DNA from: Clostridiales bacterium UBA735
GTDB taxonomy: Bacteria > Bacillota > Clostridia > Oscillospirales > Oscillospiraceae
Length of the DNA: 20,458 bases
Direction of reading: 5' to 3'
Assembly (NCBI GenBank): GCA_002298695.1
Contig: DBLB01000058.1
Span: 11,469-31,926, forward strand
The notes under the pieces were generated by a model. That model did no database searches and had not been told where the DNA came from. It saw only the letters and a program-made list of their open reading frames with translations. Position 1 is the stretch's first letter. Every line of letters starts with the position of its first letter. This document shows positions 1 to 16,727 of the stretch, piece after piece. Made by a program: the position numbers and the translations under genes.

Positions 1-585
1 ATCATTCTGAAGACCAGCTATCTGGGCGTGGATGCCGGCATCAGCGGCGTACCGCGTCTGCCCTTTGCGGGATCTGACAATGCAATGTATCTGCTGACGG
101 TCGTGGTTGTCTGTGTTGCGATGCTGCTGATCTATCTGCTGTCGAAGTCCCAGTTTTCCTGGATTTTCCGGGCAGTTCGGGAGAATAAAGAGAAGGCTTC
201 CTGTATTGGCGTTGACATCGTGCGGATCCAGCTCATGGGCTATGTGATCAGCGGCCTGTTTGCCTGCATTGCGGGAATGCTCTATACCATGAAGAATAAC
301 GGTGCTTACACCTATTCCTGCTCCGTGCAGCTGTCTATGGAGGCACTGATCATGTGCCTGCTCGGCGGCATGAACAACTTCTGGGGCCCTGCTTTGGGCG
401 CGATGATCGTCACGCTGTTCAACACGCAGGTCACCAATTCGACAATTTACGCAAACTTCTGGCTGGGCATTTTGACGCTGTTCGTTGTGATGTTCATGCA
501 GAGCGGCATTTTGGATGAGGGCCTTCGGGATCAGATCAGGACAGCACTCGTCAAGTATCGCAGAAAGGGAACGGAAAAGTCATGA
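1..585 (+). CDS. livM: Branched-chain amino acid-type ABC transporter permease, LivM family (5' truncated by window edge)
   Basis: This is the C-terminal part of an inner-membrane permease of the LivM family; the reading frame is open from base 1, so the true start lies upstream. The visible part holds several hydrophobic spans (the strongest around YLLTVVVVCVAMLLIYLL and the segment ending in FVVMFMQSG). The stretch FRAVRENKEKASCIGVDIVR matches the cytoplasmic coupling loop typical of LivM/LivH permeases (RAxRENExxAxxxGI), followed by the conserved GLFACIAGMLY and LLGGMNNFWGPALGA segments. Its stop overlaps the livG start as ATGA, showing translational coupling. Family members import leucine, isoleucine and valine, but many paralogues carry aromatic acids, amides or other small acids. 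Because the genes are immediately followed by a catabolic operon, the true cargo may be that operon's substrate; this is inference. The family call is secure, the substrate is not. Confidence 0.92.
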   Translation: MILKTSYLGVDAGISGVPRLPFAGSDNAMYLLTVVVVCVAMLLIYLLSKSQFSWIFRAVRENKEKASCIGVDIVRIQLMGYVISGLFACIAGMLYTMKNNGAYTYSCSVQLSMEALIMCLLGGMNNFWGPALGAMIVTLFNTQVTNSTIYANFWLGILTLFVVMFMQSGILDEGLRDQIRTALVKYRRKGTEKS

Positions 586-1331
586 GCGAGCAAAGGTATA
601 TTCTCAGAACAGAGGGTCTGACAAAAAACTTTGGCAGCCTCAAAGCAGTGGACGATATTTCCATTCAGGTTCCCTATGGCCAGATGCGGGCGGTGATCGG
701 CCCGAACGGCGCAGGAAAATCCACGCTGATGAATCTGATCATTCAGAAGACCGCCCCCTCCAGCGGCAAGGTATTCCTGATGAATCAGGAGATCACCGGC
801 AGACCGACGCATCATATCTCCAATATGGGCATGAGCAAATGCTTCCAGATTACGCAGGTCTTTACAGCCCTGACCGTATTTGAAAATGTGCGGATGTCTC
901 TGATCGTGGATCGTAAAAAGACGTATAGCTTGCTTCCGGTTTCCGAAAGCTATCTCCGGGAGGAGGTCATGGAGATCCTTCGGCTGATCGGGATTGCCGA
1001 TCTGGCGGACGAGGTCGTCAAGAATCTGTCTTACGGTGATCAGCGCCGGCTGGAGATCGCCATTACCCTGGCGAAACATCCGAAACTTATGATCCTGGAC
1101 GAACCTGCGGCCGGTGTAGCCCGGAAGGAGAGCTATGTGCTTATGGACATGGTTCGGGAACTCCGCGATAAGCTGGATATGACGATGCTGTTCATTGAGC
1201 ATGATATGGATATCGTCTGGAACTATGCAGAGGAGATCACCGTGATGAACCTGGGCCAGTTCGTAGCCTCCGGAACTCCGGACGAGATCCGGCACAACGA
1301 TTTTGTGCAGAAGGCATATTTGGGAGGCTGA
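582..1331 (+). CDS. livG: Branched-chain amino acid-type ABC transporter ATP-binding protein, LivG family
   Basis: This cytoplasmic ATPase subunit drives the LivHM permease. All ABC motifs are present in order: Walker A GPNGAGKST (residues 40-48), Q-loop in KCFQITQVF, signature LSYGDQRRLEIA, Walker B LMILDEPAAGV and switch histidine in IEHDMDIV. The LSYG-Q-RRLEIA form of the signature and the C-terminal region around VASGTPDEIR are characteristic of LivG rather than LivF. At 249 aa the length is normal for the family. The ATG overlaps the livM stop (ATGA), and the stop lies five bases before the livF start, so the three genes are translated as a unit. The substrate is set by the periplasmic-type binding protein, which is not in this window. 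Confidence 0.95.
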   Translation: MSEQRYILRTEGLTKNFGSLKAVDDISIQVPYGQMRAVIGPNGAGKSTLMNLIIQKTAPSSGKVFLMNQEITGRPTHHISNMGMSKCFQITQVFTALTVFENVRMSLIVDRKKTYSLLPVSESYLREEVMEILRLIGIADLADEVVKNLSYGDQRRLEIAITLAKHPKLMILDEPAAGVARKESYVLMDMVRELRDKLDMTMLFIEHDMDIVWNYAEEITVMNLGQFVASGTPDEIRHNDFVQKAYLGG

Positions 1332-1335
1332 TGGT

Positions 1336-2049
1336 ATGATTCTTGAAGTAAAAGATGTACACGCATACTATAAAGACTCCCATGTGCTGTTCGGCATGGA
1401 TTTCGGCGTGGACGAGGGAGAATCCGTCTGCCTGATCGGCAGAAATGGCGCGGGCAAAACAACGACGATGAAATCCATCATGGGCATGATGAACCCGATC
1501 CAGAAATGCACGACCAAAGGCAGTATCCTTTTTGACGGAAAAGAGATCTGCGGAAAGCCCACCTATGCCATTTCCAAGTCCGGTATGGGCTATGTTCCCC
1601 AGGGACGGCATATCTTCTCCCTGCTGACAGTGCGGGAGAATCTGGAAATTGCCGAGCGCAAGGGCGTCAACGGGGAAATGACCTGGACAATGGACAAGAT
1701 CTTCGAACTCTTCCCCCGGCTGAAGGAACGTCTGAATTTCAAAGGCCCCAGCCTTTCCGGCGGTGAACAGCAGATGCTTGCTGTGGCCAGAGGACTGGTG
1801 CAGAATCCCAGGATTCTGCTGCTGGATGAGATCACCGAAGGTCTGGCGCCGATCATCGTGGACGAACTGGCGGAGATTATCGGCGAGCTGCGCAGGCAGG
1901 GCGTCACCGTCCTGGTCGCCGAGCAGAACATGAAGTTCGCGCTGAAGGTCTCCGACCGCTGCTGCATCCTGGAAAAGGGAAAGATCGTCTACAGTGACAA
2001 GACTTCCGAAATTCCGCAGGAAATCTTCACAAAATATCTTGGCGTATAA
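1336..2049 (+). CDS. livF: Branched-chain amino acid-type ABC transporter ATP-binding protein, LivF family
   Basis: This is the second ATPase subunit of the importer, 237 aa from the chosen ATG, which lies 8 bases after GGGAGG (1322-1327); an upstream in-frame ATG at 1303 lies inside livG and has no ribosome site. Motifs are Walker A GRNGAGKTT, the LivF-typical GYVPQGRHIFSLLTVRENL, signature LSGGEQQMLAVAR, and Walker B LLLDEITEGLAP followed by VAEQNM. The usual proline after the Walker B glutamate (DEPSEGLAP in most LivF proteins, from memory) is isoleucine here, a mild variation that leaves the catalytic glutamate intact. It is the last transporter gene before a 92-base gap with a hairpin. 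Function as a transport ATPase is confident; cargo is unknown. Confidence 0.94.
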   Translation: MILEVKDVHAYYKDSHVLFGMDFGVDEGESVCLIGRNGAGKTTTMKSIMGMMNPIQKCTTKGSILFDGKEICGKPTYAISKSGMGYVPQGRHIFSLLTVRENLEIAERKGVNGEMTWTMDKIFELFPRLKERLNFKGPSLSGGEQQMLAVARGLVQNPRILLLDEITEGLAPIIVDELAEIIGELRRQGVTVLVAEQNMKFALKVSDRCCILEKGKIVYSDKTSEIPQEIFTKYLGV

Positions 2050-2055
2050 GAACAT

Positions 2056-2100
2056 CGTGCCCGGGGCGGCAGAGGCGATACCTCGGCGGCTCCGGGCACG
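2056..2100 (+). terminator. GC-rich hairpin between livF and the glycyl radical enzyme gene
   Basis: Bases 2056-2064 (CGTGCCCGG) pair perfectly with 2092-2100 (CCGGGCACG), and a smaller GAGG/CCTC hairpin (72-75 with 81-84 of the same block) nests inside. Only three T residues follow, so it is a weak intrinsic terminator at best. Its position suggests partial termination or mRNA processing that sets different levels of transporter and enzyme mRNA. No convincing promoter was seen in 2050-2141. Confidence 0.5.
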
Positions 2101-2141: not shown

Positions 2142-4541
2142 ATGTATCAATTCAAACCGGTCAGCGACCGGGTCGCATACCTTCGGGAGCGCTACCGTAC
2201 CTCTCCTGTGATCCTGGATTCGGAGCATGCCCGTCTGGTGACGGAAGCCTACCGGAAATATTCCCATGAAGTCGCCATCCTCAAGCGCGCAAAGACCCTT
2301 TACTATGTCTGCGAACACAGAACGCTCCGGGTGGAGGATCGGGAGCTGCTTGTGGGAAATCTGGGGCTGAATTATCGGGGCACCAGTATTTCTCCGGATT
2401 ACGGTATGGGCTGGCTGATCGACGAGCTGGATACCGGCCTGTTCGACCAGCGCGATACCCAGCTGGAGCACATGGAGCTGTCGGAGGAAGACCGGAAGGT
2501 TTTCCGTGAGATCGCTCCATTCTGGGCGCAGAACAGCGCCTCGACCTTTATCGATAAAGCGATCCCCAGCCTGTTCTCCGACGTGCTGGCAGGGGGCGTC
2601 CTGTCCTACCGGGAGAAGGGCAACGCGGATATGCCGACCGGTCACTTCAATGCAAACTATTCCAAGCTGATCAATCGGGGCCTGGCGTCCATCCGGCAGG
2701 AAGCCCAGGAGAAGCTGGACGGGCTTATGGGACATATCGGGCCGGACGATCCCGAACGGTTTTTCTTCTATCAGGCAATTATGATCTGCTGTGATGCGGT
2801 GATTTTGCTTTCCAAACGCTATGCAAAGGCCTGCCGTGAAAAAGCGGAAACCGCCGAGGAGCCGCGGAAGGCAGAGCTTCTCATGATGGCCGATTCGCTG
2901 GATCATATTATGGAGCACCCGTGCCGGACTTTCCATGACGCGGTACAGGCATGCTATCTGTACCAGATCGTGATGGCCCTGGACGGCAGTCTGCATGGGA
3001 TCTCGTTTGGGCGGTTCGATCAGTATGCGTATCCGTTCCTCAAAGCGGACCTGGAAAATGGCCGTATCACGGAGGACGAAGCGCAGGAACTGGTGGACTG
3101 TTTCTTCCTGAAGATCAGCGACATGTTCAAAGGACGTTCTCACTTCGTTTCCATGGGCGGCGGCGGGTATACGTCCGGCCAGCAGATGAGTCTGGGCGGC
3201 GTGGATGCCGCGGGCAATGATGCCTCCAATCCGCTGTCTTATATGATGCTCCAGGCGTCCGCACGCCTGAAGCTGCATACGCCGCCGCTGTCTCTGCGAA
3301 TCCATAAGAATACCCCGCGGGAGCTGTGGGAGGCGGCAACTGCCTGCACCAGCCAGGTGGGCGGAATCCCCACCTTCCAGAATGATGATGTGATCATCCC
3401 AATGATGGTAGAAGCCGGTTATTCGCTGGAAGACGCCCGGGATTACTGCATCATTGGCTGTGTGGAGCCGGCCGGTTCCGGAAATGATTTCCCTGCCTGC
3501 GGCGGGCCCCATGCCAAGTGCTACATCAATATGGCAAACTGCCTGATCGTGGCGCTGAACGATGGCGTCAATCCTCTGAACGGAGTCCAGAGCGGACCGC
3601 ATACGGGAAGACTCTCAGAGATGACGGACTTCACGCAGGTATTGGAGGCATTCAAAAAACAGGTTGAATTCTACATGGATTGGAAGATCTCTCTGACTAA
3701 CATGATGGAGTACATTACCCAGAACGTAATGCCGCTGCCGGTGCTGTCCATGACCCTGGATGGCTGTATGGAGTCTGGTATAGACTGCACTTCCGGCGGG
3801 GCAAAGTACAATGGCTGCGGCAGCGCGTCTGTCGGAACCGGTACGGTCGGCAACAGCCTGGCCGCCATCAAATGGGCCGTTTTTGATGAGAAGGTCTGCA
3901 CCGCGCAGGAGTTCTACGATGCCTGGATGGCAGGCTGGAAGGGGCATGAAGAACTGCGGCAATTGCTGATCCACAAGGCACCGCACTATGGAAATGGTGT
4001 GGAAGAAGTGGACGAGCTGGCCTCCTGGGCTATGGATGTCTATGCCCAGAAGTACAATTCCGGCAATTTCCGCCGCGGCAGGATGAAAGCCGGCCTGTTC
4101 TCTGTTTCCGGCCATATTCCCATGGGAAAGAGCACCATGGCGACGCCGGACGGACGCCTGGGCGGTACGCCTCTGTCCGATGGGATATCTCCCTCTCAGG
4201 CTACCGACAAACAGGGGCCGATTCCGATTTTGCAGGGAGCTGCGAAGCTGAAGCAGAGCCATGACTATAACGGCACGCTGCTGAATATGAAATTCCATCC
4301 CAAATCCGTAGAAGGGCAGGAGGGGATCGACAAACTGATCCGGCTGGTGCAGACCTATTTCCGGGAGGGCGGTATGCACATTCAGTACAATGTGATTGGC
4401 TCCGAAACGCTGCGGGATGCGCAGAAGCATCCGGAAAAATATCGGGACCTGGTCATTCGGATCGCAGGCTTCTCTGCCTACTTCGTAGAACTCTACAAGG
4501 AACTGCAGGATGATCTGATCTCCCGAACGGATCAGCAGTAA
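2142..4541 (+). CDS. Glycyl radical enzyme of the Cys-x-Glu (eliminase/decarboxylase) class, substrate unknown
   Basis: An oxygen-sensitive cytoplasmic enzyme that uses a protein glycyl radical to start radical chemistry on its substrate. The 799 aa length fits the diol dehydratase, choline lyase and arylacetate decarboxylase group. The active-site loop GCVEP places the thiyl cysteine at Cys440 and a base at Glu442; the glycyl radical motif RIAGFSAYF gives Gly776, 23 residues from the C-terminus. The adjacent Cys-Cys of pyruvate formate-lyase is absent. Other family marks are TGHFNANY (165-172), GRFDQY (290-295), GGAKYNG (552-558) and MATPDGR (666-672). There is no N-terminal microcompartment-targeting extension. 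Start chosen at ATG with AAAGGAG 8 bases upstream. The activase gene follows 12 bases downstream. The segment after the active-site loop (GNDFPACGG) does not match what I remember for glycerol dehydratase or choline lyase, so no substrate is assigned. Class is certain; reaction is open. Confidence 0.93.
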   Translation: MYQFKPVSDRVAYLRERYRTSPVILDSEHARLVTEAYRKYSHEVAILKRAKTLYYVCEHRTLRVEDRELLVGNLGLNYRGTSISPDYGMGWLIDELDTGLFDQRDTQLEHMELSEEDRKVFREIAPFWAQNSASTFIDKAIPSLFSDVLAGGVLSYREKGNADMPTGHFNANYSKLINRGLASIRQEAQEKLDGLMGHIGPDDPERFFFYQAIMICCDAVILLSKRYAKACREKAETAEEPRKAELLMMADSLDHIMEHPCRTFHDAVQACYLYQIVMALDGSLHGISFGRFDQYAYPFLKADLENGRITEDEAQELVDCFFLKISDMFKGRSHFVSMGGGGYTSGQQMSLGGVDAAGNDASNPLSYMMLQASARLKLHTPPLSLRIHKNTPRELWEAATACTSQVGGIPTFQNDDVIIPMMVEAGYSLEDARDYCIIGCVEPAGSGNDFPACGGPHAKCYINMANCLIVALNDGVNPLNGVQSGPHTGRLSEMTDFTQVLEAFKKQVEFYMDWKISLTNMMEYITQNVMPLPVLSMTLDGCMESGIDCTSGGAKYNGCGSASVGTGTVGNSLAAIKWAVFDEKVCTAQEFYDAWMAGWKGHEELRQLLIHKAPHYGNGVEEVDELASWAMDVYAQKYNSGNFRRGRMKAGLFSVSGHIPMGKSTMATPDGRLGGTPLSDGISPSQATDKQGPIPILQGAAKLKQSHDYNGTLLNMKFHPKSVEGQEGIDKLIRLVQTYFREGGMHIQYNVIGSETLRDAQKHPEKYRDLVIRIAGFSAYFVELYKELQDDLISRTDQQ

Positions 4542-4553
4542 GGGGGAGAAGCT

Positions 4554-5513
4554 ATGGAAGACCGGGAAATCATCGGTCATTTATATGATATTCAGGGATA
4601 TTCCGTGCATGACGGCCCGGGGATCCGCACAACAGTATATCTGAAGGGCTGCCCCCTTCGCTGTCTGTGGTGCCACAGCCCGGAATCTCAGACATTTACA
4701 GATGAACTGGCCTATATGAAGCTTCGATGCGTCGGGGCGGAAGACTGTGGGGCCTGTCTGCGGGCGTGTAAGCATGGGGCCATTGCGCTTTGCGAGCCGG
4801 AGCAGTCCCCGCTGGACAAGACGGTGTACCTGACGAAGATCCGGGTGCTCCGGGAGAAATGCGTCGGCTGCATGGACTGCGCCAGGGCCTGTAACGCGGA
4901 GGCGCTGTTTTGTGACGGCTATGACCTGTCCGTTGAGGAGACCTTTCGCCGGGTCATGCGGGATAAGCTGTTTTTTGGAGAAGACGGCGGCGTGACCATT
5001 TCCGGCGGCGAAGCCATGAGCCAGCCCGAGTTCACATATGCGCTGGCAAAAAGGTGCAAAGAGGCCGGCGTGAGTGTTTGCCTGGATACGACAGGCCAGT
5101 GCGAATGGCCGCTGCTGGAGAGAATGATCCCTGTAACGGATCTGTTCCTCTATGATCTGAAGCAGATGGACAGCGCCAAACACAAGGCGTTTACCGGCGT
5201 CCCGAATGAGCGGATCCTGGAGAATGCCAGACGGCTGGCTGCTGCGGGCGGGAAACTTCAGATCCGGATCCCGGTGATCCCAAAGCTGAATGGGGATCTG
5301 AAAAATATCCGGGATACCGCTGCATTCTGCCGGGAGCTGGGAGACGCAGTGACGCTGGTTCAGGTGCTTCCCTACCATAGAATGGGATTGGCCAAATATG
5401 AGCGGCTGGACAAGCCTTATCGATTGACCAATATCGACCCGCCGGATGACGACTACATGAATGAACGTTTGCAGGTGATGCTGGATGCAGGTTTGAAAGC
5501 ACAGCTGCACTAA
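4554..5513 (+). CDS. Glycyl radical enzyme activating enzyme (radical SAM, two extra 4Fe-4S clusters)
   Basis: This protein installs the glycyl radical on the enzyme encoded just upstream, by reductive cleavage of S-adenosylmethionine. The radical SAM motif CPLRCLWC gives cluster ligands Cys33, Cys37 and Cys40, and SAM contacts are in SGGE (150-153). Between them sits a ferredoxin-like insert with two cysteine sets, Cys59/65/68/72 and Cys103/106/109/113, the layout of activases for glycerol dehydratase, choline lyase and 4-hydroxyphenylacetate decarboxylase, and absent from pyruvate formate-lyase activase. The opening HDGPGIRTTVYLKGCPL is a family hallmark. Length 319 aa is normal. The ATG has AAGGGGGAG upstream and the gene lies 12 bases after the glycyl radical enzyme stop, so partnership is close to certain. 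Confidence 0.95.
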   Translation: MEDREIIGHLYDIQGYSVHDGPGIRTTVYLKGCPLRCLWCHSPESQTFTDELAYMKLRCVGAEDCGACLRACKHGAIALCEPEQSPLDKTVYLTKIRVLREKCVGCMDCARACNAEALFCDGYDLSVEETFRRVMRDKLFFGEDGGVTISGGEAMSQPEFTYALAKRCKEAGVSVCLDTTGQCEWPLLERMIPVTDLFLYDLKQMDSAKHKAFTGVPNERILENARRLAAAGGKLQIRIPVIPKLNGDLKNIRDTAAFCRELGDAVTLVQVLPYHRMGLAKYERLDKPYRLTNIDPPDDDYMNERLQVMLDAGLKAQLH

Positions 5514-5527
5514 GGAGGTTCCGTAAA

Positions 5528-6505
5528 ATGAAAAAAATCGTTTCGCTGTTTGCCAAGGGCAATCCTCTGTATCAGATGCTCAATGATCGGGCGGCCGGGT
5601 ATGCCGCTGAAAAGGGCTTGGAATATGTCTGGGTGCCGATGGATCCGTTCACCCCGGAGAAGGCCATTGCCGCCCTGAAGGATGCGGATGCCGGTATTAT
5701 CGATGTGGAAAAGTATGACAAAGAGATTTTTTCCCAAATTTGTGACCGAACGAAGCTTCTGATTCGCTTCGGCGTCGGTTTCGATGCCGTGAATCTGGCA
5801 GACGCAGCGCAGTACGGCATCAGAATTGCCCGTACCCAGGGGGCAAATGCAGGTGCTGTGGCAGAAGATGCACTGCTGCTGATGATGGCGCTGCGCCGAA
5901 AGCTGAACCAGGGACAGCTTGGTGTCAGGACCGGAAACTGGGTCAAGGAGATCGGACATGAAATGATCGGAGCCACCGTAGGCATTCTGGGCTTCGGTGC
6001 CGTGGGCAAGACGCTGGCACGGCTCCTGAGCGGCTTCAGATGCCGCATTCTGGCGTATGATACCTACCATGATGAGAAAGCTGCCGCTGAGTTGGGCGTG
6101 GAGTTTGCAGATGCCGATACCATCTTCCGGGAGTGTGATGCCATCAGCATTCATCTTGCCCTGAATGAGCAGACGCAGGGCTATGTCAATGCGGAGCGCC
6201 TGGCCATGATGAAGCCGGATGCGATCATTGTCAACACGGCCCGCGGCCCGCTGGTGGATGATGCGGCAATGGTAGCGGCCCTGAAAAATCATCAGATCGG
6301 CGGCGCGGGTCTGGACGTATTTGCAGAGGAACCCCTGCCTGTGACGAGCCCCTACATTGGCCTTGACAATGTGATCCTGACGCCCCATGTGGCCAGCTCC
6401 ACGGTGGAATCTCTGTGGAATATCTATGCGATGGCCATTGACGTGGCAGCGGACTTCTTTCACGGCACGGAAAGCGCGCAGACAAAGCGCTGCTGGCTGA
6501 ACTGA
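5528..6505 (+). CDS. D-isomer-specific 2-hydroxyacid dehydrogenase (phosphoglycerate dehydrogenase-like)
   Basis: An NAD-linked oxidoreductase that interconverts a 2-hydroxyacid and a 2-oxoacid. The N-terminal catalytic domain is followed by a Rossmann domain with GFGAVG (155-160) and an acidic residue Asp178 after the second strand (LAYDTY), which favours NAD over NADP. The catalytic triad is visible: Arg239 in NTARGPLVDD, Glu268 in GLDVFAEEP and His287 in TPHVASS. At 325 aa it lacks the C-terminal ACT regulatory domain of long serine-pathway SerA proteins. A very strong AAGGAGGT ribosome site lies in the 14-base gap after the activase. In context it could reduce a 2-oxoacid formed from the imported substrate, regenerating NAD, or oxidise a hydroxyacid before the radical step. 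The substrate cannot be read from sequence. Confidence 0.9.
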   Translation: MKKIVSLFAKGNPLYQMLNDRAAGYAAEKGLEYVWVPMDPFTPEKAIAALKDADAGIIDVEKYDKEIFSQICDRTKLLIRFGVGFDAVNLADAAQYGIRIARTQGANAGAVAEDALLLMMALRRKLNQGQLGVRTGNWVKEIGHEMIGATVGILGFGAVGKTLARLLSGFRCRILAYDTYHDEKAAAELGVEFADADTIFRECDAISIHLALNEQTQGYVNAERLAMMKPDAIIVNTARGPLVDDAAMVAALKNHQIGGAGLDVFAEEPLPVTSPYIGLDNVILTPHVASSTVESLWNIYAMAIDVAADFFHGTESAQTKRCWLN

Positions 6506-6518
6506 GCGGAGGAGATCC

Positions 6519-6986
6519 ATGCTTTATAATCAGCTGTGCTTACATGACCGGTATGATCTGGACAGCCCGGAATTCCGCGCGGGCTTTGCCTTTCTGCGGC
6601 GGAAGGATCTGGCGGAGCTCGCCGAGGGGGAATACTCGGTGTGCCAGGGTGTCACCGCCTACATTCAGCTCTATACCACCGCTCCAAAGGAAACGCTGCT
6701 CTTTGAAACCCATGAGAAATACTTTGATATTCAGTATGTGGTCACAGGCCGGGAGGGCATCGGCGTCCTCCCGCGGGAAGGGCTGACGCCGCAGACCGCC
6801 TATGACGCCCAAAGGGACATTCAGTTCTGGAAGGAGCCGGAATATGCGGGGATGGTGGTGCTGCATCCGGGCGACTATGCGCTGCTGCCGCCGGAGATGG
6901 CCCATAAGCCGCGGATATCTCTGGGAGAGGATCGTCCGCTGCGCAAGCTGGTAGTGAAAGTACCCGCCGTATCCCGAACGAAATAA
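6519..6986 (+). CDS. YhcH/YjgK/YiaL family (DUF386) cupin-like protein
   Basis: A 155 aa single-domain beta-barrel protein. The hallmark ETHEKYFDIQYVVTGRE (residues 63-79) corresponds to the family pattern E-x-H-x-x-x-D-I-Q-x-x-x-x-G-E, and the second conserved block HPGDYALLPPEMAHKP carries His129. These acidic and histidine residues form the presumed metal or ligand pocket. Known relatives are YhcH (sialic acid operon), YiaL (diketogulonate operon) and EbgC (beta subunit of evolved beta-galactosidase), so the family usually accompanies sugar or sugar-acid catabolism. The ATG has GGAGGAG six bases upstream and the gene begins 13 bases after the dehydrogenase stop. Its presence hints, weakly, that the operon's substrate or an intermediate is carbohydrate-derived or polyhydroxylated. 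Family secure; biochemical role unproven. Confidence 0.88.
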   Translation: MLYNQLCLHDRYDLDSPEFRAGFAFLRRKDLAELAEGEYSVCQGVTAYIQLYTTAPKETLLFETHEKYFDIQYVVTGREGIGVLPREGLTPQTAYDAQRDIQFWKEPEYAGMVVLHPGDYALLPPEMAHKPRISLGEDRPLRKLVVKVPAVSRTK

Positions 6987-7017
6987 CCGGATATAAAAGG
7001 AAAGGAACAGAACTGCA

Positions 7018-8013
7018 ATGCTTACCAAAAGACAGAACCTGCTGGAAACCATTCACGGCGGCAAGCCTGATCGCTATGTCAACATGTTTGAGGCGTTCGG
7101 GTTTACAAGCTATATTCCGTTTTCCATGCACGACCATCGCCCCAACCCCGGAGATATGAATGTGGTCAATTCCTGGGGGATCACCCGTTCCTGGCCGGTC
7201 GGCAATCCCGGCCCGTTCCCCGTTCACACGGCAGACCGCCTGGTTGTCAAGGACATCGCCGACTGGAAGAAGTATGTGAAAGCCCCGCAGGTAGTTTTTG
7301 ATGCCAAAGAGTGGGAACAGGCCATTGCCTACGCCGAGAAAATCGACAGGAACGAGCAGTTTGTAACGGCAACCTTTGCGCCCGGTATTTTTGAAAATGT
7401 GCATTATCTCTGCGAGATCCAGAACACGCTGATGGCCTTTTACGAAGAGCCGGAAGCGCTGCAGGAGCTGATTGACTTCCTGGGAGAGTGGGAGATCAGC
7501 TATGCCAGAGAGGTCTGCAAGTATCTGAAGCCGGACTGCCTGTTCCAGCACGACGATTGGGGCAGCCAGATATCCACCTTTATCGCGCCGAGCATGTTTG
7601 AAGAGTTCCTGCTGCCGATTTATAAAAAGGTATATGGCTACTATAAGAGCCACGGCGTGGAGCTGATCGTGCACCACTCTGATTCCTACGCGGCAACGCT
7701 GGTGCCCTATATGATCGAGATGGGCATCGATATCTGGCAGGGCGTTATGACGACCAACAACATCCCGGAGCTCATTGAAAAGTATGGCGGCCAGATCTCC
7801 TTCATGGGCGGCATTGACAGTGCCGCAGTGGATCACGAAGGCTGGTCCGAGGAGGAGATCCGGGAAAAGGTCTTCGCGGCCTGCGATGCCTGCGGCAAGC
7901 ATTATTTCATTCCCTGCGCCTCCCAGGGCGGCGCCATGGCGACATATCCCGGCGTGTACGATGCATTGACCCGGGCGATTGACGCCAAGAGCGCGATCGA
8001 TTTCGCAAAGTAA
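7018..8013 (+). CDS. Uroporphyrinogen decarboxylase-fold protein (URO-D/methyltransferase superfamily), non-heme type
   Basis: A 331 aa cytoplasmic TIM-barrel protein of the superfamily shared by HemE and the corrinoid-dependent methyltransferases MtaA/MtbA/CmuA. Visible family marks are the N-terminal KRQNLLETIHGGKPDR, HDDWGSQ (178-184), HHSDSY (219-224), a GIDIWQG strand and the C-terminal IPCASQGGAMATYPGVYDAL. The HxCG zinc motif of methylcobamide methyltransferases is replaced by HHSDS; only a cysteine in FIPCASQ remains. No corrinoid-binding protein or reductive activase is nearby. It is therefore unlikely to be true HemE and not clearly a methyltransferase. It may act on an intermediate of the pathway, as a decarboxylase, lyase or methyl-transferring enzyme; this is inference. 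Start is the ATG with AAAGGAA upstream; the gap to the previous gene is 31 bases. Confidence 0.85.
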   Translation: MLTKRQNLLETIHGGKPDRYVNMFEAFGFTSYIPFSMHDHRPNPGDMNVVNSWGITRSWPVGNPGPFPVHTADRLVVKDIADWKKYVKAPQVVFDAKEWEQAIAYAEKIDRNEQFVTATFAPGIFENVHYLCEIQNTLMAFYEEPEALQELIDFLGEWEISYAREVCKYLKPDCLFQHDDWGSQISTFIAPSMFEEFLLPIYKKVYGYYKSHGVELIVHHSDSYAATLVPYMIEMGIDIWQGVMTTNNIPELIEKYGGQISFMGGIDSAAVDHEGWSEEEIREKVFAACDACGKHYFIPCASQGGAMATYPGVYDALTRAIDAKSAIDFAK

Positions 8014-8022
8014 TTATAGTCC

Positions 8023-8065
8023 CGCGGCCTGTGCAGCAAGGAAGCATTGTGCTGCCCAGGCCGCG
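8023..8065 (+). other. Long intercistronic hairpin upstream of the ene-reductase gene
   Basis: Bases 8023-8031 (CGCGGCCTG) pair perfectly with 8057-8065 (CAGGCCGCG). After one mismatch the stem continues with 8033-8038 (GCAGCA) against 8050-8055 (TGCTGC), leaving an 11-base loop. There is no T-tract, so it is not a standard terminator. The structure ends about 10 bases before the ribosome site of the next gene (AAGGAG at 8076-8081), a position suited to translation control, RNase processing or protection of mRNA ends. Confidence 0.6.
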
Positions 8066-8093
8066 TCTGGCGGAAAAGGAGTTCGATTCGTTT

Positions 8094-10067
8094 ATGTATC
8101 AGAAATTGTTTCAGCCTCTGCAGATCGCCGGTATGCATGTTCCGAACCGCATTGCCATGACTGCAATGGGGAACCATCTGGCAAACCCGGATGGCACGGT
8201 CTCCGATGCCGACGTGGCATTTTATGCCGCCCGCGCGAAGGGCGGTGTGGGCCTGGTGATCACGGAGTGCGCCTGTGTGGACTTTGCCTCCGGAAAGGGA
8301 AATCTCCGGCAGATGGCCGTAGATGACGACAAGTATCTTCCGGGCCTGAGGAGACTGGCCGATGCGGTCCATGCCCAGGGGGCAGCGCTTTGCGTGCAGA
8401 TTTATCATCCCGGCCGCCAGGGAATTGCCGCCGTCAACGGTGTGGAGACGATGGCCGCGCCCAGCGTTACGGAATGCCAGTGCGTGCACCAGCCGACCCA
8501 TGCAATGACCGCAGAAGAAATCAGGGACATGGTCCGGCGCTTTGCCATGGGGGCCTATCGGCTGAAGCAGGCAGGCGTCGACGCGGTGGAGTTCCATGGT
8601 GCCCATGGTTATCTGATCGGGCAGTTCCTCAGCCCCTATACCAACCACCGAACCGATGCCTACGGCGGTTCTTTTGAAAACCGGATGCGTTTCCTGGACG
8701 AGATCATTCTGGAGTCACGCCGCCTGTGCGGAGACTATCCGATGCTTGTCCGCTATTCCGTAGACGAGCATATGGACTATGCAGGCCAGCCGGACGCCGG
8801 CTTACATCTGGCCGATGGGATCGAGATTGCGCGTCATCTGGAAAAAATGGGCGTGGATGCGCTGGACGTGAGCAGCGGCATCTATGAGACGATGAATACA
8901 GCCTGGGAGCCGGTAGGCTTTGACGAGGGATGGAAAATGGATGGCCCCGCCGCCGTAAAGCGCGCTGTATCGATCCCGGTCATCGGTGTTTCCGTGATAC
9001 GGGAGCCTGCCTATGCGGAGCAGATCCTGGCCGAGGGAAAGGTGGATATGGTTGGTTCCGCCCGTGCGTTTCTGGCGGATCCGCAGTGGGGAGAGAAGGC
9101 ACGGGAGGGCCGAGATGGAGAAATTCGCAAGTGCATCTCCTGCCTGTACTGTATGGAAACCCTGATGGCGGCGGATATGAGCCCTGTGCCCATGGGCTGC
9201 GCCATCAACTTTGAAGCCTGCCGGGAGAATGAGTGGCAGACGGAGAGACTGGAGAAGGATGGAAACGGCCGCACCGTGGCTGTCATCGGTGCCGGCCCTG
9301 CCGGAATGGAAGCGGCCCGGGTACTGGCGCTGCGCGGCTTCCGGCCTGTGATTTTCGAGAAGACCGCCCATGCAGGCGGCCAGGTCCTGCTGGCTTCCAA
9401 GCCGCCGAAGAAGGAGAAAACCGGCTGGCTGATCGACTATCAGCTGGGGCAGCTGGAGAAACTGGGTGTGGAGCTCCGGCTGAATACACCGGCCTCCCTG
9501 GCGGCCATAAAGGAGATCGACCCGTATGCCGTATTTGTGGCGCAGGGTTCCGACAGCGTAAAGCCCCGGTCGATCCCGGGCCTGGATGGCCCCAACGTGT
9601 GGGTGCCCGGAGATGTGCTCATGGGCCGCGTTAATTTCCGTGACCAGGATGTCTGCGTAGTCGGCTCCGGCATGACCGGCATTGAAACTGCGGAACTGCT
9701 GGGCAGTCAGGGAAATCGGGTCACGGTCTTTGAAATGGCGGATGAGATCGGGCCCGGGGTGTTTTTCCAGAATCTGATTGACGTGATGCGCCGGGTAGCC
9801 GCCCATGGCACAAAGCTCTGTCCGAAGCACAAGCTGCTGCGGGTGGATGGCAATGAAGTTACCGTGGAAACGACGGATACGCAGCAGCAGAAGACCTTCC
9901 GTTTTGATGGGATCGTTCTTTCCCTGGGGGTCGCGCCGAACAAAACCCTTGTGGAGGACCTGAAGGCGGCGTTTACGCATGTGGTATTGCTGGGTGACGC
10001 AAGCAAAGGCGGACGGATCGCAGATGCCATTGGCAGCGCCTATCAGGCCGCTGCGGAGTTGAAATGA
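8094..10067 (+). CDS. NADH:flavin oxidoreductase/2,4-dienoyl-CoA reductase-type ene-reductase (OYE-FMN, 4Fe-4S, FAD/NAD domains)
   Basis: A 657 aa modular flavoenzyme that reduces carbon-carbon double bonds next to a carbonyl, passing electrons from NAD(P)H through FAD, a 4Fe-4S cluster and FMN. Residues 1-340 form the Old Yellow Enzyme barrel (YHPGRQG at 104-110; EFHGAHGYLIGQFLSP at 166-181; GSARAFLADP at 321-330). Cys347, Cys350, Cys353 and Cys369 are the probable cluster ligands. The FAD motif VIGAGPAGMEAA and a second nucleotide motif VVGSGMTGIETAE follow, and the C-terminus has the GDASKGGRIADAIGSA FAD-binding strand. Relatives include FadH, BaiCD, enoate reductases and trimethylamine dehydrogenase. 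The chosen ATG has AAGGAG at 8076-8081; an in-frame GTG at 8031 would run through the upstream hairpin and adds no conserved sequence. In context it likely reduces an unsaturated product of the radical reaction, or feeds electrons to it. Confidence 0.9.
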   Translation: MYQKLFQPLQIAGMHVPNRIAMTAMGNHLANPDGTVSDADVAFYAARAKGGVGLVITECACVDFASGKGNLRQMAVDDDKYLPGLRRLADAVHAQGAALCVQIYHPGRQGIAAVNGVETMAAPSVTECQCVHQPTHAMTAEEIRDMVRRFAMGAYRLKQAGVDAVEFHGAHGYLIGQFLSPYTNHRTDAYGGSFENRMRFLDEIILESRRLCGDYPMLVRYSVDEHMDYAGQPDAGLHLADGIEIARHLEKMGVDALDVSSGIYETMNTAWEPVGFDEGWKMDGPAAVKRAVSIPVIGVSVIREPAYAEQILAEGKVDMVGSARAFLADPQWGEKAREGRDGEIRKCISCLYCMETLMAADMSPVPMGCAINFEACRENEWQTERLEKDGNGRTVAVIGAGPAGMEAARVLALRGFRPVIFEKTAHAGGQVLLASKPPKKEKTGWLIDYQLGQLEKLGVELRLNTPASLAAIKEIDPYAVFVAQGSDSVKPRSIPGLDGPNVWVPGDVLMGRVNFRDQDVCVVGSGMTGIETAELLGSQGNRVTVFEMADEIGPGVFFQNLIDVMRRVAAHGTKLCPKHKLLRVDGNEVTVETTDTQQQKTFRFDGIVLSLGVAPNKTLVEDLKAAFTHVVLLGDASKGGRIADAIGSAYQAAAELK

Positions 10068-10081
10068 TGGGAGGAACCTTT

Positions 10082-11236
10082 ATGAGACATGATCCTTATT
10101 TCCAGCTGGCCCCGGTGCTGTTTGGCTGGGGCGTTTCGGCGCAGGCCGGAGAGGTCGTTCAAAAGCTGGGCTGCGGCAATGCGATTTTGATCACGGATGC
10201 AGGCGTTGCCGCTGCCGGTGCGGCAGAAAAGATCCGTACATCCCTGGAGGCGTCCGGGGTTGACGTTACCGTGTGGGATCAGGCACAGACGGATTGCCCG
10301 GAGGGGACCGTTCGCGTTGCTGCGGCGCTTGCCCGGGAGAAAAAGGCAGATTGTGTCGTCGGTGTTGGCGGCGGAAGTGTGTTGGATACGGCAAAGGCAG
10401 TCGCCGCTGTTGCAGTAAACGGCGACGGGGTGTTGGGGGAAATGCCGCTGTATCTCACGGGACAGAAGCAGTATGCGGCAGCTCCGCTGCCGGTAATTGA
10501 GATCCCCACCACCTCCGGCACGGGCTCTGAGAGCACCTTTGTGGCCGTGGTCACCTCGGATGCCCTGGATTGTAAGATCGGTCTGCCGGTGAATCCGGCC
10601 TATGGCATTGTGGATCCCCAGCTGACCCTGACTGTGCCGCCGGATGTGACCGCCTATACCGGCATGGACGCATTCTCGCATGCCAACGAGGCCCTGACCG
10701 AGCAGAAGGCGTCCCGGCATTCAGACCTGCTGGCTTATGAGGCGATCCGGCTGATCCGGGAGAATCTGCCGGCGGCAGTTGCAGATGGAAGCAATGCCGA
10801 GGCGCGGGAAAACCTGGCCTTTGCCAGCAATCTTGCAGGGATTTCCTTTAATGAATCCGGCACCCATATCGGCCATTCCATCGCGCACGCGCTGGGACAT
10901 CGGTATCACCTTCCGCATGGTATCTGCTGTGCCAACGTGACCCCGGCGGTCATTGCGTTCACGGCGCGGACCTATCCGGAAAAAATCAAAAAGCTTGGAA
11001 CATGGATGGGCGCCGTGTATTCTTCCGACGAGCCGGAAGCGATCGGACAGGCCGCGGCGAAAGCCGTTCGGGATTTTGCGGCCCGGGTGGGGGTGCCGAC
11101 GTTCCGCCAGCTGGGCCTTGATGCAGAAAAAGTTCTGGCGGTGCGGGATGCTGTATGGAATGACGGCCTGGCCCATGCCTACGGCGGCGACTTGAAGCCG
11201 GAGGATCTTGAGCACATTTTACTGGATACACTGTAA
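10082..11236 (+). CDS. Iron-containing (group III) alcohol dehydrogenase
   Basis: A 384 aa NAD(P)-dependent dehydrogenase that interconverts an alcohol and an aldehyde or ketone. The nucleotide motif GGGSVLDTAK (96-105) and the IPTTSGTGSE block (141-150) are diagnostic. Metal ligands inferred by comparison with FucO are Asp196 and His200 (GMDAFSHA), His265 (HIGHSIAH) and His279 (LPHG); all four are present. The chosen ATG has GGGAGG 6-7 bases upstream (10069-10075). Two earlier ATGs at 10064 and 10067 overlap the previous stop and lack a ribosome site. Relatives include FucO, 1,3-propanediol dehydrogenase DhaT and lactaldehyde reductases, enzymes that often dispose of the aldehyde made by glycyl radical dehydratases. 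That role here is plausible but not proven. Confidence 0.92.
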   Translation: MRHDPYFQLAPVLFGWGVSAQAGEVVQKLGCGNAILITDAGVAAAGAAEKIRTSLEASGVDVTVWDQAQTDCPEGTVRVAAALAREKKADCVVGVGGGSVLDTAKAVAAVAVNGDGVLGEMPLYLTGQKQYAAAPLPVIEIPTTSGTGSESTFVAVVTSDALDCKIGLPVNPAYGIVDPQLTLTVPPDVTAYTGMDAFSHANEALTEQKASRHSDLLAYEAIRLIRENLPAAVADGSNAEARENLAFASNLAGISFNESGTHIGHSIAHALGHRYHLPHGICCANVTPAVIAFTARTYPEKIKKLGTWMGAVYSSDEPEAIGQAAAKAVRDFAARVGVPTFRQLGLDAEKVLAVRDAVWNDGLAHAYGGDLKPEDLEHILLDTL

Positions 11237-11246
11237 GGGGATCGGC

Positions 11247-12245
11247 ATGACACGATATCTGGAAGGAAAAGTGGCTGTTGTGACCGGTTCCGGGCAGGGA
11301 ATTGGCCGGGCTGTCGCAGCGGCACTGGCCCGCCAGGGCGCGGCGGTCGTGACCAATAACCGCAAACCCGGGGCAGCGGGAACCACGCAGCTGACGCCGG
11401 AACGTCTTGCGCGCCTTACCCCGGAGGAACGGGCCTGGGTCGCAGAGGAAATGCAGCGCTTTGGCGGTGACGCGGAGCGTACCGCCGAGATGATTCGCCG
11501 GGAGGGCGGTCAGGCAAAGGCCTGCTTCGCGGACATTACGGATTACGATGCGGCGGGATACCTGATCGATACCGCCGTGGAGCATTTTGGCGGTGTGGAT
11601 ATTCTGGTCAACGTAGCGGGGGCTTTCGGTTTTTCGCCGTTTGAAAAAATGTCGCCGGAGCTGTTTCGAAAGGTGACCGCCGTTAAGCTCGACGGGTATT
11701 TCAATACCTGCCGCCACGCCGTCCCGCATATGCTGGAAAGAGGGTGGGGGAGGATCATCAACTGCACCTCCAGAGCCTGGCTGGGAGACATCTTCCGCCA
11801 TGCGGAATACTGCGCCGCCAATGCCGGCGTGGTGGGTCTGACCCGGGCCCTGGCGGTGGAATACGCCGATAAGGGAATTACGTCCAACTGCTTTTCCCCA
11901 TTTGCCCGCACAAGAGCGGCAGTTGATTTACAGATGTTTGACAAAACGGTGGATCAGGAGGATCGCGTCATGGCAATGGGCGGCCCGACCCCCACAGTGG
12001 ACAGCGCTCCATTGCCGGAAGAACTGACACCGCTGGTCTGTTACTTATGTACGGATGCCGCTGCAAGGGTCAATGGGTCTGTCTTCAATGTCGGCGGCAA
12101 CAAGATCGGCCTGTACTCAAACCCGGAGATCGTTCGTCAGATCTGCAAATCATCGGGCGAGGGCTGGACTGTGGAAGAACTGGTCAGCTCCGCAGACCGA
12201 ATGCTTCTGCAGGGATACCATAGTGTGGTAGAAAATTACCGCTAG
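11247..12245 (+). CDS. Short-chain dehydrogenase/reductase with altered catalytic tetrad
   Basis: A 332 aa Rossmann-fold protein, the last gene of the catabolic operon. The coenzyme motif TGSGQGIG (13-20) and NVAGA (122-126) are normal. Of the usual Asn-Ser-Tyr-Lys tetrad, Ser175 and Tyr188 are present with normal 13-residue spacing, but the Asn position (TAVKLDGYF) carries Lys147 and the Lys position (YCAANAGVVGL) carries Asn192. An inserted segment of about 45 residues (roughly 38-82) after the second strand resembles the loop of MFE-2/HSD17B4-like 3-hydroxyacyl dehydrogenases. The chosen ATG follows AAGGGG at 11235-11240, ten bases after the alcohol dehydrogenase stop; an upstream in-frame ATG at 11208 lies inside that gene. 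It may be an active variant, or a binding or structural pseudoenzyme. SDR fold is certain; activity is not. Confidence 0.88.
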   Translation: MTRYLEGKVAVVTGSGQGIGRAVAAALARQGAAVVTNNRKPGAAGTTQLTPERLARLTPEERAWVAEEMQRFGGDAERTAEMIRREGGQAKACFADITDYDAAGYLIDTAVEHFGGVDILVNVAGAFGFSPFEKMSPELFRKVTAVKLDGYFNTCRHAVPHMLERGWGRIINCTSRAWLGDIFRHAEYCAANAGVVGLTRALAVEYADKGITSNCFSPFARTRAAVDLQMFDKTVDQEDRVMAMGGPTPTVDSAPLPEELTPLVCYLCTDAAARVNGSVFNVGGNKIGLYSNPEIVRQICKSSGEGWTVEELVSSADRMLLQGYHSVVENYR

Positions 12246-12442: not shown

Positions 12443-13363
12443 TTATTTTACCGCTGGACGAAGTGCCTCCAGCCAACTGAGAATATCGCCGTAGACGGCT
12501 TCATGGTTGCTCTCATTGAGCATCTCATGCCGCCCCTCGGGGTAGATCCGGATGGCCACGCGCTTCATGCCCGCGCGCTTGAACGCGTCGATGCAGGCCA
12601 GTACGCCGCGGCTCATCCCGCCGACCGGGTCCTTCCCGCCGGACACGAACAGCACCGGCAGCTGCTTGTTCATCTTTTCCAGATTCTCACGTTTCTCGTT
12701 CATCTCCACGCCCGAAAGCAGATCGCGCGCCAGCCCGACCGTCGCGTCAAAGCCGCACCACGGATCCGCCGTGTAGGCGTCGACGACCTCGTCCACGCTG
12801 CAGATCCAGTCATTCTTCGTCCGCACCGGCGCAAACGGCTTGTTGTAGCTGCCGAACATCAGCTGCGTCACCAGCTTGCTCGTGTTCTGCGCGCCGACAC
12901 GCTTTTCCTCAATTTTGCAGACGAGCTGCCCGGCCTTGACCTTCGGCATTGCTTCCCAGCCCGTGCCGGAGATGACTGCCGCGTCCAGCGCATCCGGATA
13001 CGTGTACAGATACGTCCGCAGCAGGAACGATCCCATGCTGTGCCCGAGGATATAGTAGGGGATCCCCGGAAAATCCGCCGCCATCTTGTCGTGCAGCGTT
13101 TTCTCGTCGGCCATCGCCGCCAGCCATCCGCCGCGGAAATAGCCGTACACACCGTCCGTCACCGAACCGCCGTGTCCCATGTGGTCGTCCGCTGCCACGA
13201 CGAAGCCGCGCGCCGCCAGAAACTTCGCAAAATCGTCATACCGTCCGATGTGCTCCGCAATCCCGTGGATGATCTGCACCACCGCCCGCGGCGCGCCCTC
13301 CGGTGTCCAGAGTCCGCAGCGCAGCTGCCCGCCGCCTTTCGACGCAATATAAAATTCCTGCAT
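12443..13363 (-). CDS. Alpha/beta hydrolase, monoacylglycerol lipase/lysophospholipase-like
   Basis: A 306 aa serine hydrolase without signal peptide, so probably cytoplasmic. The oxyanion region HGIAEHIGRY (33-42) and the nucleophile elbow GHSMG with Ser109 are typical of the monoacylglycerol lipase/PldB-like subgroup. Asp245 (SGGKDPVGG) and His279 (EGRHEML) complete the triad. A cap segment of about 80 residues (140-220) lies between strands 6 and 7. The start ATG is preceded on the - strand by AAAGGAGCAGC. The gene stands alone, divergent from a small + strand gene, and converges with the catabolic operon. Likely substrates are monoglycerides, lysophospholipids or other esters; specificity is unknown. 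Confidence 0.9.
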   Translation of the reverse strand: MQEFYIASKGGGQLRCGLWTPEGAPRAVVQIIHGIAEHIGRYDDFAKFLAARGFVVAADDHMGHGGSVTDGVYGYFRGGWLAAMADEKTLHDKMAADFPGIPYYILGHSMGSFLLRTYLYTYPDALDAAVISGTGWEAMPKVKAGQLVCKIEEKRVGAQNTSKLVTQLMFGSYNKPFAPVRTKNDWICSVDEVVDAYTADPWCGFDATVGLARDLLSGVEMNEKRENLEKMNKQLPVLFVSGGKDPVGGMSRGVLACIDAFKRAGMKRVAIRIYPEGRHEMLNESNHEAVYGDILSWLEALRPAVK

Positions 13364-13409
13364 TTTTTGCTGCTCCTTTCTAATTGTCCGAATTATCGTA
13401 CATATCTTC

Positions 13410-13418
13410 TGCTATACT
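13410..13418 (+). promoter_or_regulatory. Extended -10 promoter for the 73-aa protein gene
   Basis: TGCTATACT at 13410-13418 fits the extended -10 form TGnTATAAT with one mismatch. No good -35 box sits 17 bases upstream (GAATTA). Transcription would start about 13425, leaving a short leader before AGGAGGT at 13436-13442. The inter-start region (13364-13449) also must hold the divergent hydrolase promoter; TACGATAAT on the - strand (about 13391-13399) is a possible -10. Confidence 0.5.
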
Positions 13419-13449
13419 GACCTCAGAAACCAAACAGGAGGTCACTGCA

Positions 13450-13671
13450 ATGCAAAACAACATCATATACCTTGATCTGCGCTCCGGCATTGACGCAGCT
13501 GAATGCAGCCGCCCTGCCGCTGACGCCGCCGAATTCCGCCGCCGTGCCGACCTGCGCCTGCGCGCCGCCGAACGCCGCCGGAATCTGCTGAATCTCGTGG
13601 AGACCGCCGTCACGGCGCTCATCGGCGTGGGCTTCGCGCTCTGCATCGCCCTGGTGTTCACCATGCTTTAA
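13450..13671 (+). CDS. Small single-span membrane protein, function unknown
   Basis: A 73 aa protein I do not recognise. Its first 45 residues are hydrophilic and rich in Arg and Ala (RRRADLRLRAAERRR), likely a charged amphipathic helix. Residues about 50-73 form one hydrophobic membrane span ending at the C-terminus (LIGVGFALCIALVFTML). The positive charge before the span predicts the N-terminus inside the cell. A near-perfect AGGAGGT lies 7 bases before the ATG and an extended -10 promoter is upstream, which supports a real gene. A longer reading from 13384 has no ribosome site and would start upstream of the promoter. The gene is alone on its strand between two - strand genes, and its end is nine bases from the end of the decarboxylase-like gene. 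Confidence 0.7.
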   Translation: MQNNIIYLDLRSGIDAAECSRPAADAAEFRRRADLRLRAAERRRNLLNLVETAVTALIGVGFALCIALVFTML

Positions 13672-13680
13672 GCGCGAGAA

Positions 13681-14805: not shown

Positions 14806-15569
14806 CGGCGGTTGTTCTCGTACAGCGCGACCAGCCCCTTGAGCAGCAGATCGCGGTCGTAGATGATCTCCCTGCGGCACATCGGCAGAACGAACCGAGC
14901 GATGCCGCCCGTGGCGACCACGGTCGCCTTCTGCCCGAGCTCCTCTTCAAACCGCTCGATCATCCCGTCGAGCATGCACGCATTTCCAAGCATGATGCCG
15001 CTGCGCATCGCATCGACCGTGTTGCGCCCGATGGCGCGCTTCGGCGTGTCGAGGCTGATGCCCGGCAGCTGCGCCGTCCGCCCGGTCAGCGCCTCCGCCG
15101 ACACTTTCACACCCGTACAGATGCTGCCGCCGATGTATGCGCCGTTTGCGTCCACCACGGCGATCGTCGTCGCCGTGCCCATGTCGATCAGAATGATCGG
15201 CGGCTTGTATTCCCGCAGCGCCGCGACCGCGCCGGCCACCAGATCGCTGCCGACCGAGGCCGGATTGTCGAGCAGGATGTTCAGCCCCGTTTTGATCCCG
15301 GGCCCGACCACGAGCGGCCGCTTGCCCGTCAGCTTCCGCACGGCTGTCCGCACCGAGTTGAGCACCGGCGGCACGACGGACGAAATGATCACACCCTCCA
15401 CCGCGCCGCAGTCGATCTCGTAGAACGACAGCAGATTTTTCAGATCCATGCAGTACTGGTCGGATGTCTTCAGCAGTTCCGTTGCCAGCCGCGCCTCCTG
15501 CTGGATTTTTCCGCCCTCATAGCAGCCGACCACAATATTCGTGTTGCCAATATCGATCAAAAGCAGCAT
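14802..15569 (-). CDS. coaX: Type III pantothenate kinase
   Basis: Catalyses ATP-dependent phosphorylation of pantothenate, the first step of coenzyme A synthesis, in the cytoplasm. The ASKHA-fold signatures are clear: DIGNTN (6-11) as phosphate loop 1, GSDLVAGAVAA with Asp109 as likely catalytic base, DMGTATT (129-135) as phosphate loop 2, then GGSICTGVK and the NTVDAMRSGI helix. Length 255 aa is normal for CoaX. GGAGGT lies five bases before the ATG, and the gene begins 12 bases after the phosphodiesterase-like gene on the same strand. Its stop codon overlaps the next gene's start. Type III enzymes are common in Firmicutes and resist feedback by CoA. Confidence 0.96.
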   Translation of the reverse strand: MLLLIDIGNTNIVVGCYEGGKIQQEARLATELLKTSDQYCMDLKNLLSFYEIDCGAVEGVIISSVVPPVLNSVRTAVRKLTGKRPLVVGPGIKTGLNILLDNPASVGSDLVAGAVAALREYKPPIILIDMGTATTIAVVDANGAYIGGSICTGVKVSAEALTGRTAQLPGISLDTPKRAIGRNTVDAMRSGIMLGNACMLDGMIERFEEELGQKATVVATGGIARFVLPMCRREIIYDRDLLLKGLVALYENNRR

Positions 15570-15581
15570 GCCAGACCTCCA

Positions 15582-16052: not shown

Positions 16053-16080
16053 TTTTTCATCACCTTTTCCGTCCCTCCCG

Positions 16081-16088
16081 CATAGACT
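16081..16088 (+). promoter_or_regulatory. Possible sporulation-sigma -10 element before the small-protein triad
   Basis: CATAGACT fits the CATAnAnT form of the -10 box used by the mother-cell factors sigma-E and sigma-K. An AC dinucleotide at 16062-16063 lies 17 bases upstream, near the spacing of a sigma-K -35. The expected start near 16095 would give a leader of about 30 bases with AAAGGAGG at 16113-16120. A single 8-base match is weak evidence. Confidence 0.35.
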
Positions 16089-16126
16089 GAAGGAGACATC
16101 CGTCAGACCCGGAAAGGAGGAACGTT

Positions 16127-16360: not shown

Positions 16361-16363
16361 GCC

Positions 16364-16714: not shown

Positions 16715-16727
16715 AAGGAGGCCCGCC

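Follow-up and report, generated by a model that had tools for sequence, protein, structure and literature searches.

The stretch of DNA analyzed here, hereafter the window, comprises 20,458 nucleotides of contig DBLB01000058.1 from Clostridiales bacterium UBA735 and carries an operon built around a glycyl radical enzyme (GRE). Open reading frame (ORF) calls, Pfam searches, and gap measurements define eight codirectional + strand genes spanning 2142 to 12245, with intergenic gaps, in operon order, of 12, 14, 13, 31, 17, −4, and 10 bp (Table 1). These genes encode the GRE and its activase, a D-2-hydroxyacid dehydrogenase, a YhcH-family protein, a URO-D superfamily protein, an old yellow enzyme (OYE)-type ene-reductase, an iron-containing alcohol dehydrogenase (Fe-ADH), and a short-chain dehydrogenase (SDR), for which an ATG start is more likely than the TTG of the longest ORF. 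A sequence-only reading of the window had proposed this block with these families, and both are confirmed. It had also held that, to its knowledge, known GRE operons lack the set, and in our literature searches, which lay largely outside subscription papers, we recognized no listed paper as a match. The operon is real, and its GRE is uncharacterized.

Table 1. Features of the window, with coordinates in nucleotides from its first position
Feature	Position	Strand	Basis and remarks
ABC permease (BPD_transp_2), truncated by window edge	1..585	+	Pfam; syntenic in L001 and L003
LivG/UrtD-like ABC ATPase	582..1331	+	Pfam, NCBIfam; syntenic in L001 and L003
LivF/UrtE-like ABC ATPase	1303..2049	+	Pfam, NCBIfam; syntenic in L001 and L003
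RNA hairpin between livF-like and GRE genes	2056..2100	+	Fold of 2045-2141: −44.5 kcal/mol, z −5.1
GRE, clade A, 799 aa	2142..4541	+	Pfam PFL-like 7e-178, Gly_radical 7e-33; C440, E442, G776 in RIAGFSAY
GRE-activating radical SAM enzyme, 4Fe-4S insert	4554..5513	+	Pfam Radical_SAM and 4Fe-4S; TIGR02494 306 bits, cutoff 174
D-2-hydroxyacid dehydrogenase family protein	5528..6505	+	Pfam 2-Hacid_dh
YhcH/YjgK/YiaL family protein (YhcH/DUF386)	6519..6986	+	Pfam; TIGR00022 above cutoff
URO-D superfamily protein, probable corrinoid-dependent methyltransferase I	7018..8013	+	Pfam URO-D
OYE/FAD/4Fe-4S ene-reductase	8031..10067	+	Pfam Oxidored_FMN/Pyr_redox_2; start GTG 8031 or ATG 8094
Fe-ADH	10064..11236	+	Pfam
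SDR with insertion	11247..12245	+	Pfam; favored start ATG 11247, longest-ORF start TTG 11208
Alpha/beta hydrolase, pyridoxal phosphate decarboxylase-like, type III pantothenate kinase, phosphoesterase, UDP-N-acetylglucosamine 2-epimerase, GT4	12443-20259	-	Pfam
253-aa ORF, no Pfam match	17038-17799	-	

The GRE carries the features that define its superfamily: PFL-like and Gly_radical domains, an active-site Cys-x-Glu (C440-V-E442), a radical glycine (G776) within a C-terminal motif, and a cognate activase. It scores under the cutoff of every NCBIfam model that it matched, with 373 to 564 bits against cutoffs of 1000 to 1150 for CutC, HypD, HpsG/HpfG, and the 4-hydroxyphenylacetate and indoleacetate decarboxylases, and 645.7 bits against a cutoff of 678.2 for TIGR01774. 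Its top fold matches are the glycerol and 1,2-propanediol dehydratases (1r8w, 9rco, 5i2g), and at 33 to 35% it falls short of high identity to them, 35% being the best figure for any solved GRE structure. An aromatic residue at the GYxxY/F position of these dehydratases is replaced by Gly346 in the window GRE; compared with their systems, the window has an additional OYE, URO-D protein, and hydroxyacid dehydrogenase, and no shell gene. The GRE shares its superfamily and activase type with CutC, HypD, HpsG, and IseG/IslA but is only 30 to 33% identical to them, scores under the NCBIfam equivalog cutoffs, and has different accessory genes. Assignment to a known subfamily was rejected because of these subcutoff scores and the 35% ceiling. 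The approach to within 33 bits of the TIGR01774 cutoff might suggest an already described enzyme, but that model represents the broad PFL2/glycerol dehydratase subfamily, and we regard such an identity as very improbable. By sequence comparison, the window GRE clusters with none of the characterized subfamilies tested and belongs to a large GRE group without an assigned function.

Conserved residues indicate what kind of reaction may be catalyzed. H168 and H285 of the window GRE align with H164 and H281 of glycerol dehydratase. H168 is invariant, and H285 is kept in at least 90%, of 69 aligned GRE sequences. A GRE that breaks a C-N, C-S, or C-C bond instead, in the manner of CutC, IslA, or the arylacetate decarboxylases, would suit the rank of CutC as second PDB sequence match (512 bits), and a leaving group is not readable from sequence; the two histidines, the scores far under the CutC, HypD, HpsG/HpfG, and arylacetate decarboxylase cutoffs, and the absence of amine and sulfite genes from the window nonetheless make this alternative improbable. 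Elimination to a carbonyl is the likely reaction type.

The block recurs in other genomes, in which the sequence-only reading had proposed to look for it. It is syntenic in L003, from a Candidatus Avoscillospira stercoripullorum metagenome-assembled genome (MAG) of the Oscillospiraceae (80.8% DNA identity over 12,291 bp), and in L001, from another Oscillospiraceae MAG (78.7% over 8,728 bp), whose contig stops inside the OYE gene. Protein identities to L003 are, in operon order, 93, 87, 92, 73, 92, 85, 83, and 86%, the 73% belonging to YhcH. Because gene order is conserved in both loci, the block is not a product of chance, and the synteny by itself points to a related member of the Oscillospiraceae, probably an animal gut bacterium, as the likely source of the window. 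The core genes also occur, reshuffled within one stretch, in L002 from a Candidatus Blautia faecipullorum MAG: a pterin-binding protein (truncated by the locus edge; the genome itself matches PF00809 there), a corrinoid protein, a second type of GRE designated GRE-B (42% identical to the window GRE), OYE (65%), Fe-ADH (61%), an opposite-strand gene whose start appears LysR-like on inspection, the activase (66%), the 2-hydroxyacid dehydrogenase (71%), GRE-A (76%), a MatE transporter, the URO-D protein (61%), and a LacI regulator. A further clade-B-type GRE lies upstream on the same contig (G002:C35:27301-29742). Within the 5 kb of a Lachnospiraceae locus, L006, we found a GRE (79%), a URO-D protein (63%), a LacI regulator, and an Fe-ADH (39%). 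YhcH is present in L001 and L003, and neither YhcH nor SDR was detected in L002 or the 5-kb L006, so both look accessory. The origin in sugar-acid metabolism that the sequence-only reading drew from YhcH is accordingly unsupported as stated.

More distant kin, with GREs 42 to 43% identical, occupy L077, where two GRE genes and an activase gene are followed by genes for an aldehyde dehydrogenase of the acylating type (512 bits for the PRK15398 subfamily, cutoff 403), a PTA_PTB acyltransferase, an Fe-ADH, and a partial OYE. This gene set suggests an aldehyde product at L077 and supports one in the wider family. The reported absence of a coenzyme A (CoA)-acylating aldehyde dehydrogenase thus holds for the window but fails for this kin locus, in which the acylating type and a phosphate acyltransferase sit beside the GREs. 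The viral contigs searched held no relative, and the plasmids searched held only relatives under 60% identity, ~37% being the best among the matches listed. P0006 and P0011, GREs closely related to that of the window (84 and 76%), have the same length recorded for their longest contig (46,068 bases) and may lie on one contig.

The Liv/Urt-type ABC transporter genes at 1-2049 run in the same direction as the operon and end 92 bp ahead of the GRE gene. They are syntenic and codirectional in relatives, and in the Avoscillospira MAG (L003 and L174) the + strand set runs on upstream to a LacI regulator. This upstream side also holds a weakly LigI-like amidohydrolase, a Peripla_BP_6 binding protein, permeases, and two methylisocitrate-lyase-like genes scoring under their family cutoffs; the opposite strand carries a GRE (46%) and an OYE (31%), which an FGGY kinase gene separates from the LacI gene. 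Several of these genes suit a sugar-acid or polyol pathway in which the GRE would dehydrate a carboxylated polyol, YhcH would interconvert anomers, the hydroxyacid dehydrogenase and Fe-ADH would finish the route, and the URO-D protein either would not be a demethylase or would demethylate a sugar, for instance a methylated uronate. YhcH in L001 and L003, the LacI regulators of L002, L003, and L006, the FGGY kinase, amidohydrolase, and methylisocitrate-lyase-like genes of L174, and MFS_2-type transporters near several URO-D relatives favor it, as does a YhcH-family gene adjoining two URO-D genes in another locus, L125; K459 of the close clade is a potential carboxylate-binding residue. Against this stand the lack of detected YhcH in L002 and L006, a Liv/Urt-type transporter in the window and a MatE gene in the L002 cluster, and an OYE/4Fe-4S ene-reductase, which would be unusual in a plain sugar-acid pathway. 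We consider a sugar-acid or polyol route possible but unlikely.

The sequence-only reading gave the URO-D protein no role; we now regard it as probably a corrinoid-dependent demethylase. The UroD superfamily includes the O-demethylases MtvB, OdmB, and VdmB (PMC13222342). The window protein has the URO-D/MtaA fold, and it shares its superfamily with these enzymes and with CdmB for haloalkanes. Neither CdmB nor another demethylase is among the fold matches listed. Against PDB sequences the single sequence returned nothing at 0.01 and a profile nothing better than E = 0.5, and the link to characterized methyltransferases I is therefore one of family, fold, and neighborhood only. In the collected loci, 16 of 45 URO-D relatives sharing 50% identity or more are encoded within five genes of a corrinoid, pterin, or RACo gene, and the L002 cluster encodes both a pterin-binding and a corrinoid protein. 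One such locus, L125, furnishes a second link between YhcH and URO-D, since its YhcH-family gene (L125:7716-8249) and two URO-D genes adjoin a RACo/pterin/corrinoid set. Many URO-D paralogs are present in the genomes of Acetobacterium paludosum, Acetobacterium tundrae, Alkalibaculum, Alkalibacter, and Sporobacter, and Sporomusa has no URO-D match at 1e-8. Because URO-D relatives often lie in corrinoid methyltransferase loci, the support for a methylated substrate is no weaker than that for a sugar acid.

Two other identities for the URO-D protein were considered. The heme enzyme UroD (HemE), which carries an N-terminal Arg motif, RxxGR, was rejected: no R-x(2,3)-GR occurs in the window protein, and its relatives sit in methyltransferase loci. 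A soluble coenzyme M methyltransferase (MtaA/MtbA) is contradicted by scores of 19 to 34 bits against NCBIfam cutoffs of 235 to 600 and by H-S-D in place of an H-x-C metal motif.

The OYE combines flavin mononucleotide and flavin adenine dinucleotide (FAD)/NAD domains with a Cys cluster, and NCR is its nearest PDB match (279 bits). This domain order and cluster are common to BaiCD, NCR, and FadH, but the window enzyme reaches only 479.6 bits against the NCBIfam BaiCD cutoff of 825. The D-2-hydroxyacid dehydrogenase recurs in L001 (85%), L002 (71%), and L003 (92%), and its nearest PDB entries are a phosphoglycerate dehydrogenase/glyoxylate reductase; neither it nor the Fe-ADH reached an NCBIfam cutoff among the matches listed. 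SDR homologs of 50 to 54% occur in the GRE loci L014, L026, and L035.

An ene-reductase nearest NCR, together with Liv-type transport, would also suit an aromatic or hydroaromatic pathway (of the methoxylated hydroxycinnamate, lignan, arylglycerol, or quinate type) in which O-demethylation precedes C-O elimination on the ring or side chain and then enone reduction. Family members are recorded in Sporobacter, Acetobacterium, Sporomusa, Alkalibaculum, and rumen or gut Oscillospiraceae, and FAD_binding_2-related flavoproteins accompany such GREs in seven loci (L022 by Pfam; L026, L052, L057, L063, L066, and L075 by blastp). The window, however, lacks genes for ring reduction, CoA ligation, or ring opening; LacI and YhcH would be atypical of such pathways, and Sporomusa lacks the URO-D match. 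We consider an aromatic or hydroaromatic route, like the sugar-acid one, possible but unlikely. The L022 flavoprotein has an N-terminal twin-arginine-like stretch, RRDFFKG.

In a FastTree phylogeny of 108 GREs, that of the window falls within a large clade, A, and 15 others make up a clade B. The active-site motif is GCVE in 90 of the 108 and GCQE in 15. GCQE and the radical glycine motif are intact in every clade B member (15/15), and we rejected the idea that clade B is a defective or regulatory GRE. As the GRE loci had been fetched by a clade A query, 27 genomes picked for URO-D or GRE content were searched with both types, each listed match being typed A or B by its higher score. Both types occur in 20 genomes, neither in 7 (five without a match at 1e-90, two with distant GREs only), and one type alone in none; the "A" gene of G407 falls outside clade A in the tree, by which 19 genomes have both types and one has B alone. 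Clade B genes lie within 5 kb of an A gene in 7 of 59 cases (2.1 expected), within 10 kb in 12 (3.5), and within 15 kb in 18 (4.8), as computed from hand-typed coordinates under a uniform-placement null that ignores shared ancestry and contig breaks, with the G407 pair counted at each distance. In some Oscillospiraceae-type genomes that also encode URO-D methyltransferase-like proteins, the group has expanded strongly and to an unusual extent, with 29 matches at 1e-90 in a 2.0-Mb genome and 22 in a 2.4-Mb genome (G203 and G064). One Lachnospiraceae MAG locus, L055, has six GREs of the family within 20 kb. It is conceivable, though distinctly unlikely, that clades A (GCVE) and B (GCQE) form a paired system, acting sequentially or as a mixed enzyme, that cleaves C-O or ether bonds of large O-methylated plant compounds after or along with corrinoid demethylation.

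We tentatively favor, at somewhat less than even confidence, a substrate-inducible operon that breaks down, without oxygen, a methylated and polyoxygenated compound, probably of plant origin. Its steps would be demethylation, one or two radical C-O eliminations, reduction of a C=C bond, and interconversion of carbonyl groups. The Liv/Urt-type ABC transporter would import the substrate, and the URO-D protein, judging from its family and the neighbors of its relatives, would pass the substrate methyl group to a corrinoid protein. The activase would install the glycyl radical on the GRE, whose architecture would allow Cys440 to abstract a hydrogen beside a C-O leaving group, and elimination of water (or alkoxide) would give an aldehyde or ketone. 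The OYE/4Fe-4S enzyme, as its family suggests, would reduce a conjugated C=C, and the Fe-ADH, SDR, and 2-hydroxyacid dehydrogenase, again by family, would interconvert carbonyl and hydroxyl groups. Two radical steps are likely because a second, clade B GRE is encoded nearby in relatives. That the demethylase and the GRE act together on one substrate is plausible.

Several observations weigh against this favored reading. Unlike the MtvB/OdmB/VdmB type, the window URO-D protein is encoded in a GRE operon, and the window contains no corrinoid partner, pterin, or RACo gene. We found no PF02607 corrinoid protein or PF00809 pterin enzyme in the closest-relative MAG, G003 (which does have two RACo-type matches), and G001 has a corrinoid protein but no PF00809 or RACo match; completeness is not given for either MAG. 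The remaining 29 of the 45 URO-D relatives, some in short loci, have no corrinoid, pterin, or RACo gene within five genes, and fold comparison does not separate methyltransferases from true uroporphyrinogen decarboxylases. The GRE has Gly286 and Ala458 at the aligned positions where glycerol dehydratase has Ser282 and Asp447, and a plain 1,2-diol dehydratase pocket is therefore not kept. YhcH and LacI hint at a sugar. Finally, we compared six families between genes within two genes of a GRE and genes farther away across 78 GRE loci (uncorrected p values). Neither URO-D (13/297 near versus 9/356 far, p = 0.20) nor OYE (5/297 versus 9/356, p = 0.59) is enriched, nor are Fe-ADH (p = 0.18) and the corrinoid protein (p = 0.59); the activase (p < 1e-9) and SDR (p = 0.03) alone are. 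Given no general URO-D or OYE enrichment, firm evidence that demethylation is coupled to the GRE is confined to the close clade, apart from single further cases in L127 and L177.

Beyond the operon, the core sequence of the hairpin ahead of the GRE gene is kept in L003 and L001, its core pattern is single copy in each of G001 and G003, and an Rfam search of it gave nothing above the gathering score. The opposite-strand genes downstream of the operon are apparently unrelated to it, and GC skew changes sign near position 12,000 of the window.

GREs perform chemistry open to few other anaerobic enzymes. Many abundant gut GREs have no known function (PMC11574389). The question of what this operon degrades is testable, since the named strain Sporobacter termitidis DSM 10068 has, judged by score, GREs of both types, A and B, along with the URO-D family; Acetobacterium tundrae DSM 9173 likewise has both types by score and many URO-D proteins. 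Identifying the substrate could explain how anaerobes remove oxygen and methyl groups, whether from plant phenolics or from methylated sugars. A paired-GRE system, if true, would be a radical route by which methoxylated phenylpropanoids or hydroaromatics are deoxygenated under anaerobic conditions.

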